NCBI GenBank assembly: GCA_025716855.1
Contig: JAIXMQ010000093.1
Coordinates: 20,344-84,343 of the forward strand
Direction of reading: 5' to 3'
From: Pilaira anomala
Lineage: Eukaryota > Mucoromycota > Mucoromycetes > Mucorales > Mucoraceae
Length of the DNA: 64,000 nucleotides
Shown: in pieces, positions 12,631-42,767 of the stretch
How positions within the stretch are numbered: the stretch's first letter is position 1
Layout of the letters: each line of letters begins with the position of its first letter
Made by a program: the position numbers and the translations under genes
Notes under the pieces: generated by a model
The model's database searches: none
What the model saw: only the letters and a program-made list of their open reading frames with translations
What the model was told of the DNA's origin: nothing

Positions 12631-13417
12631 TTAGCGAGAAGTGGCAGCAGCCTTAGGGGCGAAACCCTTGGCACCTTGCTTGCTAACCTTAGCTTGAGAA
12701 CCCTACATAATAATAATAAAAAAAGAATGGATTAAAAAAAAATAATTTCTTATAAAATCATCAAAAAAAAAAAACTTACAGCAGGGTTGGCAGCCTTCTT
12801 GGCAGCAGCAGCGGCCTTCTTGGCGTCCTTGGACTTGGAGATGGCAGCTTGACGAGCGGCAGCACGGGCATCGGGCTTTTGGTTACGCTTGGCGCGAATA
12901 GCATCCCAAGAGGCACCAACAACAGCACGTTCGTGCTTGACGGTACGGCGAGAACGCTTCTTTTGGAATTCTTCTTGCATACCCTTCTTATTCAAACGAC
13001 GGTAGATAACAGTCCACTTGATCTTACGGGGGTTCAAACGTTGAATGAAGTAAGAGGCGGCCTTACCGCTGATGAAACGGAAATGCTATAACAAAAAAAT
13101 ATTAAGTATTTCATTCTTTTTTGACATGTCCTTTTTTTTTTTATTCTTTTTTGCTTACTCTAAAAAAAAAATGATGTCAATTAAGAAACTCTTTAAAAAA
13201 AATGTATTCTATATTATTAAAAAAATTACCTAGAATCAATACGGACGTAAGTCTTACCCTTGGAAGGGTAGATCTTGTGACCAGAGAAAGCGCAAATCTC
13301 AAGCCTATAAAAAGTAAAATAAAAAAAATCGAAATAATAGCATGAGTTTATTTGTTCTTGATTCAACTAAATTGATGGATTATCATCTGGATGGTTTAGA
13401 TCGATACATTACTTCAT
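12631..13417 (-). CDS. RPL24: 60S ribosomal protein L24 (eL24)
   Basis: Structural protein of the large ribosomal subunit. Five exons: 13417-13413 (ATGAA), 13304-13230, a single base at 13159, 13085-12780 and 12702-12631, together 459 nt and 152 residues. Introns are 108, 70, 73 and 77 nt, all GT-AG. The product begins MKLEICAFSGHKIYPSKGK, continues with RIDSRHFRF and LNPRKIKWTV, and ends KAAATSR, matching eL24 over its full length (yeast has 155 residues and ends in AATSR). The one-base exon supplies the third base of the Arg codon between Ser and His. Without it exon 2 (phase 2) joins exon 4 out of frame and the conserved HFRF block is lost. The N-terminal zinc-binding Cys pair of some eL24 proteins is not evident. 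The gene is divergent from the 13777 gene. Confidence 0.93.
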
Positions 13418-13776: not shown

Positions 13777-14043
13777 ATGTCAAAAGATATAAATGATGAG
13801 GAAAATAATAAACGATATCATGAAGAACAAAATGCGAATGAACCAACGTTATCTAAATCAACCCCTTCTAGCTCTTGGATGAACGAAGAGAATATAAGTA
13901 ATAATGGTCAGCAACAAATGAACAGGCATAAACGTGGTTTATCTCAATCTGACATACAATATCAAAAGGCACCGCCCACTGATAATAGAAAAGAAAGTAG
14001 CCGTCAAGAGCAGCCGCAAGGAGGATATTATCCACAACAACAT

Positions 14044-14075
<32 letters not shown>

Positions 14076-15405
14076 GCAACAACAACAGCAACGTCGTCGT
14101 CAACCACCACCACCTCAGCCTCAATACCATGACAACTCATTTTATCCTGACGATCCTAATAAAAGACCATTAAGAGTAGATCAATTATCAGTAGGAGAAG
14201 TACACGCGATTATTGATGAAAATATAGGACTTCGTAACGATATGGAAGCTATGATTCATCAATTCCAAATGGAGAAAATGGATTTACAAAGAAGATTAAG
14301 GCATATTACTGCCCGAGTACAATATTTGGAAGATTTAAAATGTAATCATGCTTCGCCCGATCAATTAAATAATGATTTAGTAAAGACATATCCAATGCGT
14401 AGACCTTATCATAATCACCATCAGAAACCACCAATGCATAGGTCAAGATCAAAACCTTCTTTAACTGATAATAATGATAATACTGGTTTTATTCACGAAG
14501 ACGGTGGTGTAACCAGAAACGAACAAAATTACACAACTGAATCACCTGATGCAATCATTCATCATTCCGAAAATAACAACAACAATAACAACAACAACAA
14601 CAAAACCATTGGTAGAAGGAGATCTAGTGTATTTAGCGATTATTCTCCAATGAGATCTCATCCCAACGCTAACAGATATAATATGCCACCACCGCCACAT
14701 ATGTATCCTATCTTCCCTCCACCTCCGCCTCCACCCAATTACTTTTTTGGTAACAATAATAACAATGGTAGGTTTGAAGATGAAATGATGGCATATAATA
14801 TGCATCGATTCTATCAAGAAAATCAAGCAAGATCTGACGAAGAAGATGATTTAGATGACGACTTTTATTCCACTCGTAAATATTGCGCACCACCTGGTGT
14901 ACCACCCTTAATGAACGGACCTCCACCACCTCCTCCACCTCCTCCTCCACCACCACCAGGATTTATGGGTCCAAATCCGATGATGCAAGCACCCCCCCCA
15001 CCTCCTCCTCCGCCACCACCTCCACCACCTTTAGGTTACGGACCAAGACAAGATTGGATGATGGATCCTTATAATGAGCCGCCGCCAGGTCGTCCAATGT
15101 ATCGTAATAAAAAAAGATATAATATGAGTCAACCCAATTCAGATGATGAAGACGAAAGAGAAATGATGTATAGGCAAATAGCTGCTGTTGCTCAACAACA
15201 GGAAGAAGAAGAAGATATACAAATGATGATGCATCAAATGTCAATGGCTAATTTAGGTCCTCCACATATGATGCCTCCTCCTCCTCCTCCCCATCCTTCT
15301 CTAGGGTTTGTACCAAAATACAATGGTTCAATACGTCGTGTCTCGAGTCGTAGAAGTGCTCCTGGTAGTAGTCGTTCTTCTATGATAAATGGTGGCACTC
15401 GATAA
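13777..15405 (+). CDS. PolyQ/polyP-rich protein with short coiled coil
   Basis: Single-exon gene of 542 codons with an ATG in good context and a T-rich 3' flank. The N-terminal ~130 residues are disordered and hydrophilic and carry a run of about 20 Gln followed by Arg and Pro. Residues ~130-190 form a helical, coiled-coil-like segment (VGEVHAIIDENIGLRNDM, then LQRRLRHITARVQYLEDL). Beyond that come an Asn run, four polyproline blocks (up to 14 Pro), acidic patches and a Ser/Arg-rich C-terminus. Polyproline of this type often binds profilin, SH3 or WW domains, but no FH2 or WH2 domain is visible, so a cytoskeletal role is only a guess. I do not recognise the protein. Antisense frames over the repeats are shadows. 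Confidence 0.85.
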
Positions 15406-33647: not shown

Positions 33648-34758
33648 TTACAAATCAGCAACGCGAACAACTTGCTTACCGAAGTTCTTACCACGCAAGA
33701 CACCGATCAAAGCTTCAGGAGTGTTCTCAATACCGTCAACAATGTCTTCACGGTACTTGATATCACCAGCCTTTAACCATGCAGTGACTTCCTTTCTGAA
33801 AGGTTCGGTCATTTCAGGGCTATCACCGACAATGAAACCACGGATCTCAAGAGACTTGGCAACGACTTGCATAAGGTTATGAATAGGTTCTTGATCCTTG
33901 GTGTTGTATTGAGAGATCATACCGCAACAAACGATTCTTGCGAAACGGTTGGCAACGTTAATGACAGCTTCAAGCATCTTACCACCAACGTTTTCAAAGT
34001 AGATATCAATACCGTTAGGACAATGTTCCTTAAGGTTTTCTTGAATATCACCATTCTTGTAGTTGAAGGCAGCATCGAAACCAATTTCCTTCAAGTAAGC
34101 AACCTTTTCATCGGAACCAGCAGAACCAACAACTCTCAAACCGAGCTTGGCACCAATTTGACCGACTAATTGACCAACAGCACCAGAGGCAGCAGAAACA
34201 TACAAAGTTTCTCCCTTAACAGGCTTACCAAACTTGATTAAACTATGGAGTTTCAAAAAAAAAAAAATTAGTAAAATAAAAAAAAATTTCGATTTCGATT
34301 TCGCATGAACTTTACCCAACATAAGCGGTCATACCAGGCATACCAAGAACACCAACATAGTTACTGATAGGAAGACCAGAATCCTTAATTTCGTTACGGA
34401 CTTCCATGTAAGCGGTGTAAGCTTCAGGAATAAGAACGTATTCAGCGAAAGAACCTAAACCATAAACTAAATCACCAACAACGAACTTATCATTGTTAGA
34501 TTTGATGACTTGAGCAACGACGTGACCAGACATGGGTTGGTTAAGAGGGAAAGCAGGAGAATAAGATTTGATGGAAGCATCTCTCATACGTCCACGCATA
34601 TAAGGATCGACAGATAAAACTAAAGTCTTGGTGAGAACAGCACCTTGAGGAATTTCAGCTTCGATATCAATCTCTGACTTTTCAACCAACATATGTTCGC
34701 CAGCAACGGGGAAAGCAGTAGGGATTTTAGCAAAGATAATTTTAGTGTTAGAGACCAT
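33648..34758 (-). CDS. NADP-dependent medium-chain oxidoreductase, PTGR/alkenal reductase-like
   Basis: Two exons, 34758-34316 and 34242-33648, 1038 nt, 345 residues; the splice restores TAYVG-LIKFG. Family hallmarks: VLSVDPYMRGRM near residue 50, VYGLGSFAEYV, the nucleotide-binding SAASGAVGQLVGQ, VVGSAGSDEKVAYLK for the NADP 2' phosphate region, and DIYFENVGGKML. These fit the leukotriene B4 12-hydroxydehydrogenase/prostaglandin reductase branch (zinc-free MDR; yeast YML131W is a relative), which reduces alpha,beta-unsaturated aldehydes and ketones. Full length with no lesions. Probably cytosolic detoxification; the actual substrate is unknown. Confidence 0.92.
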
Positions 34759-36371: not shown

Positions 36372-39114
36372 ATGAAGTCAGGTGTACAACAAGTTGACAT
36401 GAATTGGAAAAATTATTCTAGTAAGGATGCCAGTAATTCAAATAAACGATCTAGAATAACAAGAGCTTGTAAATATATATAATATATCTGTCACTTGGAT
36501 TTTTATTGACATTTTGTATTTGTGTCTTTTTTATTTTAGGTGATATATGTCGAAGAAAGAAAATTAAGCAAGTGCTGTTTCTTTTTTTATATCAAGATTT
36601 TTTATTTTATTTATTAACATAATTTTCATATAGATGTGATATTTCTGATTCACAAAAGTGTGCGACTTGTAATCAATATGGTTGGGAATGTACCTTTAAT
36701 GATGTAAGTCCTTTCTTTTGGTTTTTTTTTTTGGAGTATTTTGTTTTTTTAATTGTTTGATTTAGACCACAAAAAAGAGAGGACCACCAAAAGGGTAAGT
36801 TGCACAATCACACACGAGAAAATTAAAAAGAGAGACCAACATTTACATAATCTAGTTATATTGAAAGTCTCGAAACTCGACTTCAAAAGATGGAAGCACT
36901 ATTAGAAACAATGCAACCTGAAAAAGAAACTAATACCACGCCAAGCCCTGATGATACCACCAAAGAAAAAACGCCACCTTCTTCTTCAGTAGAGATGCCT
37001 AAATCTGTGGAACATAGTAAAGTTGTAAAATATCTTGGAAGCTCCTCTGGATATTATTTAGTCCGTGATATCTTATCCACAAATGAAGAAGATATAGATG
37101 AAGTGAAAAATATACCTAATAAACGAAAGCAATCAAATTCAACTGAAAATGACGATGAAGTACGTTCTATACGGTTTAAAAAAATCAATGTGTTAGATGA
37201 TGATGTTATGTTTGTTCGTGATAAAACTTTGGCTGAACATGTAGATCAACTGGAAACCGATAAGCTGGATCTTAAGAACGATTTCACCCCAAAGGCTTTA
37301 TTAACTCAACTTATTTACAAGTAAAAAAAAAAAAAAAAAATACCTATAATATTAATTAATATGATGAAACTGACATATATACATATATATATTTACAGGT
37401 TTTTTGAAAGAGAACATAATTCATTACCCGTAGTCAACAAAGTAGATTTTCTTGATGCCTATGAAGGTCGTACTAAACCACCACCTGCAACTATTTTGAT
37501 ATACGCCATTTGTACAAACGCTGTCGCCATTTTGCCTTTTGATGATCCAGTTTTTACGAGTACTGGTATTCAACGCGATGAATTATTTAATACCCTTTTA
37601 GATCATACCACATCCCTTGTCCGTAAAGAATATTTAACGCCACGTTTAGCTACGATCCAAGCCCTTGTATTACTATGTGCTTACCCCGCTTGTGATAAAT
37701 CATTTTACAGAAACTGGTTAAGGGCTGGTATGGCGGTTAGAATGGCGCAAGAAATTGGTCTTCATAGAACATTAGAAAAATTAGAATTAACAGATGAAAT
37801 GTTTGAAATGCGTAAAAGAATCTGGTACTGTACTTATATTACGGATAGATGGTGCTGTGCAGCCATGGGTAGACCTTTAGCTATTGCGGATGCAGATTGT
37901 GATATTGATTTACCTGATATCAAGGGAGGAAAAAATGGTACAAAAGACTATACACTTTTTGTGAACTTTATTAAACTTTCCGGTATACTTGGAGAAGTAC
38001 TTCGTCGTATTTATTCACCTAAAGCTAAATCACAAGGTTACAATAACACAACAATCTATCACACTGTACAAAGTATTTATTTGATGTTAAATAATTGGCT
38101 TCAACAAGTACCTGAACATCATCGTATTAGTTCGGAAGAAGCTAAAATGATCCACAAGAATAATATTGTAACAAACAAAATAAGAGAAGCTGGTCCTTTG
38201 ATGATTTGTTATTACGTTGTCATTGTGCTTTTGTATCGAACTTTTCTTGTGTCGAATAAATCGGACGTGTTACCTGCCTTGTTTGAAGAAGCTAATCAAC
38301 GTTGTACAGAAGCGGCCAATAGTGTCATTGACATTGCAAGGTTACTTCCACCTGCCGAAATCGTAAATTTCGGCTGGAATTTTGCCGGTAAGGTTTTTTT
38401 CTTTTTATATATTTTTCCTTCTTCTAATTTAAAGTTTTATATTTTTTAAGGGTATCCTGTATTTCAAGCAAGTCTTATTCATGTATATAATTGTACTAGC
38501 AATCAACCAGAAGTAGCAAATAAAGCACACGAATATGTCAAAATATGTATTGAAGAGTGTATTGAGCCAATGAACAAAGAGATGAAAATGGCTCCACAAG
38601 CGGTGCCACTTATTAAAACCTTAATGACATTAATTGGGGCTGAAAAGAAAGAAAATGAAAAATTGAACTCACCAGTTACAACCAATTTACATCCACCAAC
38701 TCAACCACAACAACAACAACCAGAACATCAGTATCATCATGCTGCTGGTCCTTCTGCATTTGCATTTTCTCCGCCTGCTTTACATCCATCACCTATGAGT
38801 GTGCATGCTATTGTATCGGACTGGAATGAACCTTCTTCTTCTTCTGCTTCTACTACACAACAAGAACCTTTTGTACCACAGAATGTATCTTCAGCAGCTT
38901 GGCAAAGTTTATTCTCTTCTGCAGGTACTCCATTTTTTGAAAACGATTCTGATTGGCAAAGTAAGTTTTTCTATATTAGTACTGGCGGTATTTTTTATCC
39001 TACTTTTTCAATTTTTTTAACTAAATTTTTTTCTGTTTTTTTATTTATGTAGCAACTCTTTCATCATTGTTTGATGATGCTCAAATAAAACAGACTAATA
39101 ATTTTACACAGTAA
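36372..39114 (+). CDS. Zn2Cys6 fungal transcription factor
   Basis: Eight exons: 36372-36468, 36540-36567, 36634-36703, 36766-36794, 36856-37320, 37399-38387, 38451-38960 and 39053-39114; 2250 nt, 749 residues. The zinc cluster is spread over three exons: ACDICRRKKIKCDI, CATCNQYGWEC. It is followed by KKRGPPKGYIESLETRLQKM, the usual linker and coiled coil. The fungal transcription factor domain contains RAGMAVRMAQEIGLHR, RKRIWYCTYITDRWCCAAMG and GRPLAIADADCDIDLP. The C-terminus is Gln/His/Ser-rich, activation-like. Intron 2 begins GCAAGT, a GC-AG intron inside the zinc-finger codons. Target genes unknown; by motif it is a relative of XlnR/Tea1-type regulators. This is the intact counterpart of the two damaged regulators nearby. 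Confidence 0.92.
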
Positions 39115-41026: not shown

Positions 41027-42767
41027 TTATTTATTAGATGATTTACAACAACTTTTTTTCTCATCCAAGTTATTTGAATCAGATATAGACCAACCAGGTC
41101 CGCAAGTACAAAATGTGGTTGTTAAATCAGTTACTTCTTCTGAAATACGATGTACTTCTTGTTTCATAATTTGGGTCATATCATCATCTTTTCTAAATTT
41201 ATCGAGTCTATCTTGAATCTCTCTTGGTAAAGAAGTATATAACATACGTGGTGATCCAAGTACAAAAAGTGTTGCAAATGCAGCATTATAGTCTAACGGG
41301 GTATAAGATTGGTTTTCTCTGCCTGGATAAAGTGCGTCCAGAACTACAGGATAGAGAGGTGATTTGGTTGTATCGTATAATAATTCACTAATGTATTCTT
41401 CTGCTTTATCAGGCGTAGTTGCATTAAATGAAGCAAGTGATTGAGTGGCAAGGATAGATGTATATTCTTTAGGTACATTACGAAGTACTAATTGAACTAC
41501 ATGTTCTAATGTTCTTGGCTTCTCTAACCACATATTTTCCGGAATACGTTGACAAAATGATTTAGCTACTGTAGACCAATTTAATTTGGCTTCAGCTGAA
41601 GATTCAGTAGGGATGATTGATTCTATTGGTGCTGCAGCAGTTGCTGCTGTTGCTTCTTCTTTTTTTTGTGTTGGTTTCTTGACAGAGCAACTCTCTGGAT
41701 TTACTTTACATAAGCTAATAGGTGGATGCTCAACATCATAACTTAATAAGAAATAACCTCTAGGACGCCCAGTTTCGACATCAATTGGATTCATAGATTC
41801 AAATACTGTTTCAATAGGACACCAATAACTTGGATACTTGTAACGAGCTGTATCCAAAATAAGTACTTTACCATGTTGTGCATTATAAGCTCCAATTGGA
41901 GAAAAATGTCCATCACCCGTTTGACCTAATACTTTTCGAGAAAATGAAAGAACCATAAACGTATCCGATGTAGATGTAACCATTTCAACATCCTTTTTAA
42001 ACTCTTCAAATGTAAATTCATGTCCTCTTTTCACTTGTACATCACAATGGCATTTTGCTAAACATGCAAAATTATCAAATGTAATACCATTCTTCTTCAT
42101 ATCTTCTTTAGATGAACAACAATTCAAAAATTCATCTAAAAATTACCTTCTTTAGTATTCCTCTTTACTGTTAAACCTTCATTTTATTTTATTTTACCTG
42201 AAAACCATCGCCAATTGCCTTTCCATCTTCTCTTGGGATCTACTTCCAAAGCATTCAATACCATGGCCACTATGAAATTTTTTATAATTAGATCATTACT
42301 AATACAATAATAAACATGTTTTACTTACATGAACTAGGGCCACAATAAGCAGGTTCTGATTGAGTAGTGAAATTACCAGTCAAAGGGAAAAAGCCTTCTG
42401 CATGACCATCGTCCATAGCTTCTCTAAATAACTTTTTTCCTTCAGGGGAAGCAAAACGAACAAGAGTCGTAGGTAATTCTCTTTGATAAAACGTATTTTT
42501 TAAATCATCGGCTTTTGTATCAGAAGTAGATACACCTAATAAATCTTGAAAGGCGGCTGTAACTGAAGCTGCAGGTGCTGCCTCAAACTTAGGTATAACT
42601 GAATCGGTTTGAGTACCAATACTACGAACGATAGTCTTACTGACTGAATTTGTAGTAGGAGTAGGTTGAAATACTTTAACTGTTGGTGTTGTTGCTGTTT
42701 CTATTGAGCGTGGTAACTTGAAGTGTGTACGGTAACGTAACCACTGTGAGGCATTTACTTTTAACAT
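41027..42767 (-). CDS. PCS1: Phytochelatin synthase
   Basis: Gamma-glutamylcysteine dipeptidyltranspeptidase making phytochelatins from glutathione; metal detoxification. Exons 42767-42329, 42269-42198 and 42135-41027, 1620 nt, 539 residues. Catalytic triad visible: Cys143 in EPAYCGPSS, His247 in GQTGDGHFSPIG, Asp265 in VLILDTARYKYPSYW; the His-Asp spacing of 18 equals that of plant PCS1. Conserved LAMVLNALEVDP and RWKGNWRWFS follow the Cys. The C-terminal domain is variable, as in all PCS, and ends Cys-rich (CTCGPGW, SCCKSS). The ~140-residue N-terminal extension, with MLKVNASQWLRYRTHFKLPR at its start, looks like a mitochondrial presequence plus a disordered spacer, unusual against plant enzymes. 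Confidence 0.95.

Follow-up and report, generated by a model that had tools for sequence, protein, structure and literature searches.

The RPL24 gene of Pilaira anomala encodes the cytosolic ribosomal protein eL24 and, with high confidence, contains a predicted third exon that consists of a single nucleotide, an A at position 13159. The gene is located on the minus strand (13417..12631) of the window, a stretch of 64,000 nucleotides that forms part of contig C219, and is predicted to have five exons of 5, 75, 1, 306, and 72 nt that form a coding sequence of 459 nt for 152 amino acids. The coding part of exon 1 (ATGAA, 5 nt, 13413..13417) is followed by an intron of 108 nt between positions 13413 and 13304. 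Exon 2 (75 nt, 13230..13304) ends with GATTCTAG in phase 2, after the AG of codon 27, and is separated from the single A by an intron of 70 nt (13160..13229) that starts with GTAATT and ends with TTTTTTTTTTAG (TTTTAG end). The A would provide the third base of codon 27 (AGA, Arg) and is followed by an intron of 73 nt (GTAAGC..TTATAG, 13086..13158) in phase 0 at the boundary of codons 27 and 28. Exon 4 (306 nt, 12780..13085) starts with CATTTCCGT and the codons CAT TTC CGT TTC (HFRF), and a last intron of 77 nt (GTAAGT..ATGTAG, 12703..12779) separates it from exon 5 (72 nt including the stop codon TAA, 12631..12702).

The 34.25 Mb genome assembly (225 contigs) was searched with the Pfam profile PF01246, which identified 10 matches belonging to five genes. 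Based on a reading of the sequences the five genes are classified as three copies of eL24 (the copy in the window and one copy each on contigs C112 and C198) and two copies of RLP24 (on contigs C143 and C26, loci L011 and L012). The spliced protein of the window copy scores 98.9 bits against the Pfam L24e profile (cut-off 27), and profile positions 1–66 of 66 correspond to residues 1–66 of the protein with no net gap at the junction. Solved eL24 chains align with the spliced protein (best E value 1.7e-43) and place DSR-HFRF opposite DSK-IFRF. The NCBIfam L24e model, which is prokaryotic, remained below its cut-off (41 vs. 73 bits). Among the best 120 of 210 protein matches the closest eL24 was that of Thamnidium elegans (97%), which differs from the C198 copy by two residues.

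The G+C content of the window is ~29–35% per 4 kb and an Rfam scan of the window returned no match. A 542-amino-acid open reading frame on the plus strand (13777–15405), which is oriented divergently to RPL24 and starts 360 bases from the RPL24 start codon, has no Pfam match. Elsewhere in the window, an open reading frame on the minus strand (41027–42127) matches phytochelatin synthase (PF05023, 160 bits) and is probably one exon of a phytochelatin synthase gene because the match spans profile positions 84–210. A fungal-specific transcription factor domain (PF04082) was found on the plus strand (37361–38449) and a zinc-binding dehydrogenase fragment (PF00107) on the minus strand (33648–34322).

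The reading frame of the window copy requires exactly one base between exons 2 and 4, and exactly one base separates the acceptor AG from the following donor GT (TTTTAG|A|GTAAGC). The initial annotation had proposed the A at 13159 as an exon between GT-AG introns of 70 and 73 nt within a coding sequence of 459 nt, and all coordinates were confirmed on the minus strand. It had further held that a direct join of exons 2 and 4 is out of frame by one base; without the A, translation indeed reaches a stop after 43 residues. Its reading of AG|A|CAT as Arg27 was borne out as the sole tested GT-AG arrangement that keeps all eL24 residues, and two further paralogs show the same. Two related interpretations of the junction were rejected: a stwintron, in which an internal intron would interrupt a donor, branch or acceptor element, does not fit a complete AG and a complete GT that are one base apart, and a recursive splice site (AG|GT with no base kept) would not provide the one base needed by the frame. 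An alternative single A at 13190 in the window copy (AG-A-GT, 13192–13188) would yield the same mRNA as the A at 13159; it was rejected as the weaker candidate, with a first intron of 39 nt and a GTTTCT donor, and a counterpart at the corresponding place is absent from both other copies. A further candidate in the C198 copy (TAG|T|GTCGAA), which would give Ser, is weaker and not shared and was likewise rejected. At the level of the sequence, the one-nucleotide exon is thus very probably real.

The same arrangement of splice sites around a single A is found in all three eL24 copies (3/3), each with an open coding sequence of 459 nt. The junction reads GATAGCAG|GTAATA..ATTATAG|A|GTAAGT..TTATAG|CAT in the C112 copy (introns of 83 and 88 nt) and GATAGCAG|GTAAAT..TTTATAG|A|GTATGT..TGATAG|CAT in the C198 copy (introns of 60 and 152 nt), and exon 1 (ATGAA) is the same in both. 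The exon pattern used to measure the three copies was composed after the sequences had been read and measures the model rather than a blind discovery. All flanking introns are of the GT-AG type and of ordinary size (70/73, 83/88, and 60/152 nt vs. 59–108 nt for introns 1 and 4), and the interval from exon 2 to exon 4 is 144–213 nt in the three copies. A match to the branch-point motif yTnAy is located 17–29 nt from the 3′ end in all six flanking introns (in the window copy TTAAT at 25 nt in the upstream and 20 nt in the downstream intron); these matches are given little weight because the downstream intron of the C112 copy has only TTTAT and the motif had no shuffle control.

Pairwise comparisons of the three coding sequences revealed 22, 29, and 27 differences among 459 bases (93.7–95.2% identity) that result in 0, 2, and 2 amino acid changes. 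Because 16 out of 76, 14 out of 74, and 17 out of 74 four-fold sites are changed while amino acid changes are limited to 0–2, all three eL24 proteins are under selection. The introns were compared with 6 and 12 nt trimmed at their ends and alignment scores were related to 500 shuffle pairs. In all six comparisons of the upstream and downstream introns, the copies aligned no better than shuffles (the score was equaled or exceeded by 54 to 497 of the 500 shuffle pairs), so that the shared one-nucleotide site points to selection. Introns 1 and 4 retain slight similarity in three of six comparisons (intron 1, 3 and 10 of 500; intron 4, 22 of 500), indicating that the copies are not fully saturated everywhere. 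Within both flanking introns, the predicted splice sites and the A are what has survived. Codon 27 is AGA in all three copies while 45 out of the 48 Arg codons, the entire remainder, are CGT or CGC, and the lone AGA fits the expectation that a splice border would fix AG|A.

The chance expectation for such an arrangement was estimated with 20,000 dinucleotide shuffles of each stretch (C219, C112, and C198) in which both introns had to be at least 45 nt long. The motifs were chosen after all three copies had been read and four motifs of varying strictness were tried. The motif YAG-N-GTRWG was found in 27, 149, and 336 of the 20,000 shuffles, respectively, and a strict form (A or G as the single base, followed by GTAWG) in 11, 77, and 217. 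YAG-N-GTRWG is absent from introns 1 and 4 of the three copies, which served as controls (0 out of 6 introns). The looser YAG-N-GT is common in shuffles (696, 2,760, and 3,604 of 20,000), and a single copy would therefore represent modest evidence. Three copies with introns that cannot be aligned provide strong evidence for the predicted one-nucleotide exon.

Public eL24 protein models were inspected at the same junction. A total of 7,996 candidates were scored in the protein search, resulting in 210 matches of which the best 120 were listed, and 69 out of these 120 were assigned to the Mucoromycotina by name. Other models that reach the junction (237) were taken from three protein searches, and the partial models P0109 and P0119 were dropped. 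Among the matches listed, 19 out of 69 Mucoromycotina models are intact and 50 are broken, compared with 231 intact and six broken among the 237 other models (48 out of 49 intact in the first search alone), a comparison that is biased because score-ranked listings of the best 120 matches favor intact models among distant taxa. The Fisher value for this contrast should accordingly be read with caution. Many public Mucoromycotina eL24 models thus appear to be wrong at the junction. Eleven of the 69 listed models do not contain the six residues VRxDSR (KTY is joined to xFRF), which corresponds to an in-frame compromise with a single intron whose donor lies 17 nt upstream. The same compromise, the loss of 17 nt of exon 2 together with the one base, would also be possible in all three P. 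anomala copies, and a corresponding compromise with the acceptor shifted by +17 is seen in P0014 (Mucor mucedo). Ten of the 69 read R-V-[RSC], which fits an A or G followed by GTAAG or a GTATG-like donor but is weaker evidence because plain retention of a phase-0 intron, as in Naganishia, also gives R-V-[RSC]. Other inserts at the junction are found in six of the 69, and the remaining 23 broken models are damaged in other ways, frequently with exon 2 read in a wrong frame or with a differing N-terminus. Three models, P0044 (Rhizopus arrhizus), P0054 (Mucor hiemalis), and P0104 (Rhizopus microsporus), show DSRLS at the junction, which we infer to be the putative product of a direct join of AG to ACTTTC with the phase one base short. 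In seven species an intact model exists alongside a broken one (P0001/P0020, P0005/P0009 and P0026, P0010/P0017, P0042/P0073, P0060/P0084, P0072/P0082, and P0012/P0104).

Since several public models show errors that a missing one-nucleotide exon would force, the exon is probably older than the species. Judged by these protein models, it is probably shared by the Mucorales and perhaps by the Umbelopsidales; all six listed Umbelopsis models are broken, and all 16 listed Mortierellomycotina models are intact. The Endogonales are represented by a single model (P0100, Jimgerdemannia, DNRVC..), which is too little for any conclusion. Among the basidiomycetes, P0118 (Saitozyma podzolica) and P0149 (Vararia minispora) have lost the same six residues while their relatives are intact, possibly because of annotation slips or independent phase trouble. 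A sharing of the trait with basidiomycetes was rejected after a search with P0118 as query, which is read as an isolated odd model because nearly all of its relatives are intact. The eL24 models P0163 (Adiantum nelumboides, a fern) and P0243 (Anthurium amnicola, a flowering plant) rank among fungal sequences and look like fungal contamination. Spliced-protein searches of a genome contig collection (140 pattern matches, none confirmed) and a viral contig collection (27 pattern matches, none confirmed) say nothing about fungi because both collections are mostly not eukaryotic.

The protein sequence by itself does not prove a one-nucleotide exon because a single intron with a non-canonical border (TA-AG or GT-TA; 143 nt in the window copy, AGG|TAATTT..TATAG|CAT) would give the identical protein with AGG in place of AGA, both encoding Arg. 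In each of the three copies AGG is formed by the end of exon 2 and the first intron base, and this alternative therefore accounts for the protein of all three. It is nevertheless improbable: ordinary fungal introns are of the GT-AG type, and a single intron gives no reason for the YAG-A-GTAWG inside all three unalignable introns or for the GTAA with which the upstream intron starts in every copy. The conserved internal splice sites argue for the predicted one-nucleotide exon over a non-canonical intron. Canonical single introns of at least 40 nt were enumerated, with the donor range starting 6 nt into exon 2 and the acceptor range reaching 90 nt into exon 4. Only 5 out of 112, 4 out of 190, and 5 out of 392 donor–acceptor pairs in the three copies keep the frame, and none of the enumerated pairs keeps the whole protein, as all frame-keeping pairs lose residues of the conserved block. 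The one among them that corresponds to the 11 shortened public models, with a donor 17 nt inside exon 2 (TAC|GTCCGT or GTTCGT) and the normal acceptor, leaves an open frame in all three copies and would produce an eL24 without VRIDSR. It would pass over the better GTAA donor and drop a block that is found in the 231 intact models as well as in the solved yeast, Neurospora, and human chains, and the intact models alongside broken ones in seven species likewise speak against it, making it an even more remote explanation.

Least probable of all are an error of sequencing or assembly (or a pseudogene) in the window copy and a direct join of exons 2 and 4 that is corrected by ribosomal frameshifting, both of which we regard as extremely unlikely. 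The former has no observation in its favor and is at odds with the agreement of three separate loci, all open over 459 nt, in which synonymous changes are far above amino acid changes. The latter might be seen in the three DSRLS models, which read the direct join before they regain the frame, but these models regain it by removal of further exon sequence. As an essential ribosomal protein gene, eL24 is expected to be highly expressed, and frameshifting would have to be of near-complete efficiency.

A potential origin of the predicted one-nucleotide exon is suggested by the RLP24 genes. After codon 27, in phase 0, both RLP24 copies are interrupted by one ordinary intron (AGCAAG|GTA..TAG|ACTTT), and the downstream intron of eL24 occupies this boundary (27|28) in phase 0 as well. 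In addition, the Naganishia eL24 models P0140 and P0141 are longer by 22 and 23 residues that follow K27, start with V[SR], and end with Q, as would be the case for a retained phase-0 intron of the form GTNAG..CAG. RLP24 and eL24 may share the 27|28 intron position from before the fungi. Given this ordinary RLP24 intron directly behind codon 27, the newer intron in eL24 would be the one located one base upstream of the old one. We infer as the simplest history that an old phase-0 intron at 27|28, common to RLP24, was joined by a younger intron that would have entered at AG^A, one base upstream, and left one base as an exon. The damaged state of the public gene models suggests an insertion that predates the diversification of the Mucorales and perhaps goes back to the Mucoromycotina ancestor.

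All six flanking introns are only 60–152 nt long, which makes intron definition likely. The two short introns would each be recognized by intron definition and be taken out one after the other, as simultaneous binding of two splice sites separated by one base seems hardly feasible. In each of the three copies, AG closes exon 2 as well as the upstream intron. The bases in front of the second donor (AGA|GTAAGC) are therefore the same whether or not the first intron has been removed, and either order of splicing should work. Transcripts that skip the A would be expected to perform poorly and may be targets of NMD because the stop after 43 residues lies upstream of the last intron. A speculative extension, which we consider rather unlikely, is that the one-nucleotide exon is a trait of the whole Mucoromycotina that has been kept since their ancestor as useful: correct inclusion of the base would sensitively report the state of splicing or ribosome supply, skipping would lead to an early stop before the last intron, and eL24 output would be tuned by splicing and NMD.

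If the interpretation is correct, RPL24 would represent constitutive splicing of a one-nucleotide exon in an essential gene, probably across a large fungal group, and would offer a convenient natural system for studying how, and in what order, splice sites separated by one base are processed. The proposed origin, a new intron inserted one base from an old intron, is testable, and further one-nucleotide exons could be sought at junctions of conserved genes that are out of phase. A search of the open-licence PMC literature by title and start of abstract for one-nucleotide exons or microexons in RPL24, Mucor, Mucorales, and fungal genomes did not retrieve the RPL24 case, which is, as far as the literature searched shows, the first reported one-nucleotide exon in a ribosomal protein gene and in the Mucoromycotina. 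The initial annotation had counted such exons among the rarest splicing events known; single-nucleotide exons are indeed rare but have already been documented, in one case in a fungus (PMC12940212).

For plant APC11, Guo and Liu (2015, PMC4674806) tested a single-nucleotide exon by means of GFP constructs as well as cDNA. As in RPL24, a single A that is required for the frame is located between AG and GT, the gene had been wrongly annotated before, and sequential removal by intron definition was argued by the authors. The RPL24 case differs in gene and kingdom and is known from the sequence of three paralogs in one genome, and the interval that holds the base is 144–213 nt compared with 422 nt in APC11. 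One-nucleotide microexons of plant APC11 and VPS55 have RNA-seq and RT-PCR support (PMC8831610) and share with RPL24 a long conservation and their absence from reference annotations. VPS55 transcripts with and without the base occur in some plants (PMC8831610), whereas skipping in RPL24 would truncate eL24. Single-base exons have also been described in mitochondria of placozoans and fungi, where a different splicing system operates. Fungal stwintrons (PMC5639578) resemble RPL24 in that two introns are packed together and removed in consecutive reactions, but a stwintron interrupts a splice element of the other intron and leaves no exon base between the two, unlike the one base between a complete AG and a complete GT in RPL24. 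Another known case is the one-nucleotide exon of Fusarium CYP621A, which its authors regard as the first found in a fungal gene (Nelson and Syed 2026, PMC12940212). Both are fungal nuclear genes in which a conserved motif is brought back into frame by one base, and in both the comparison of many genes lends support. The CYP621A base is a G (AGGGT) in a rarely expressed P450 gene and is supported by 18 SRA reads. For CYP621A the loss of a base followed by rescue was proposed as the origin (PMC12940212), whereas the neighboring intron position in RPL24 points to the insertion of an intron.
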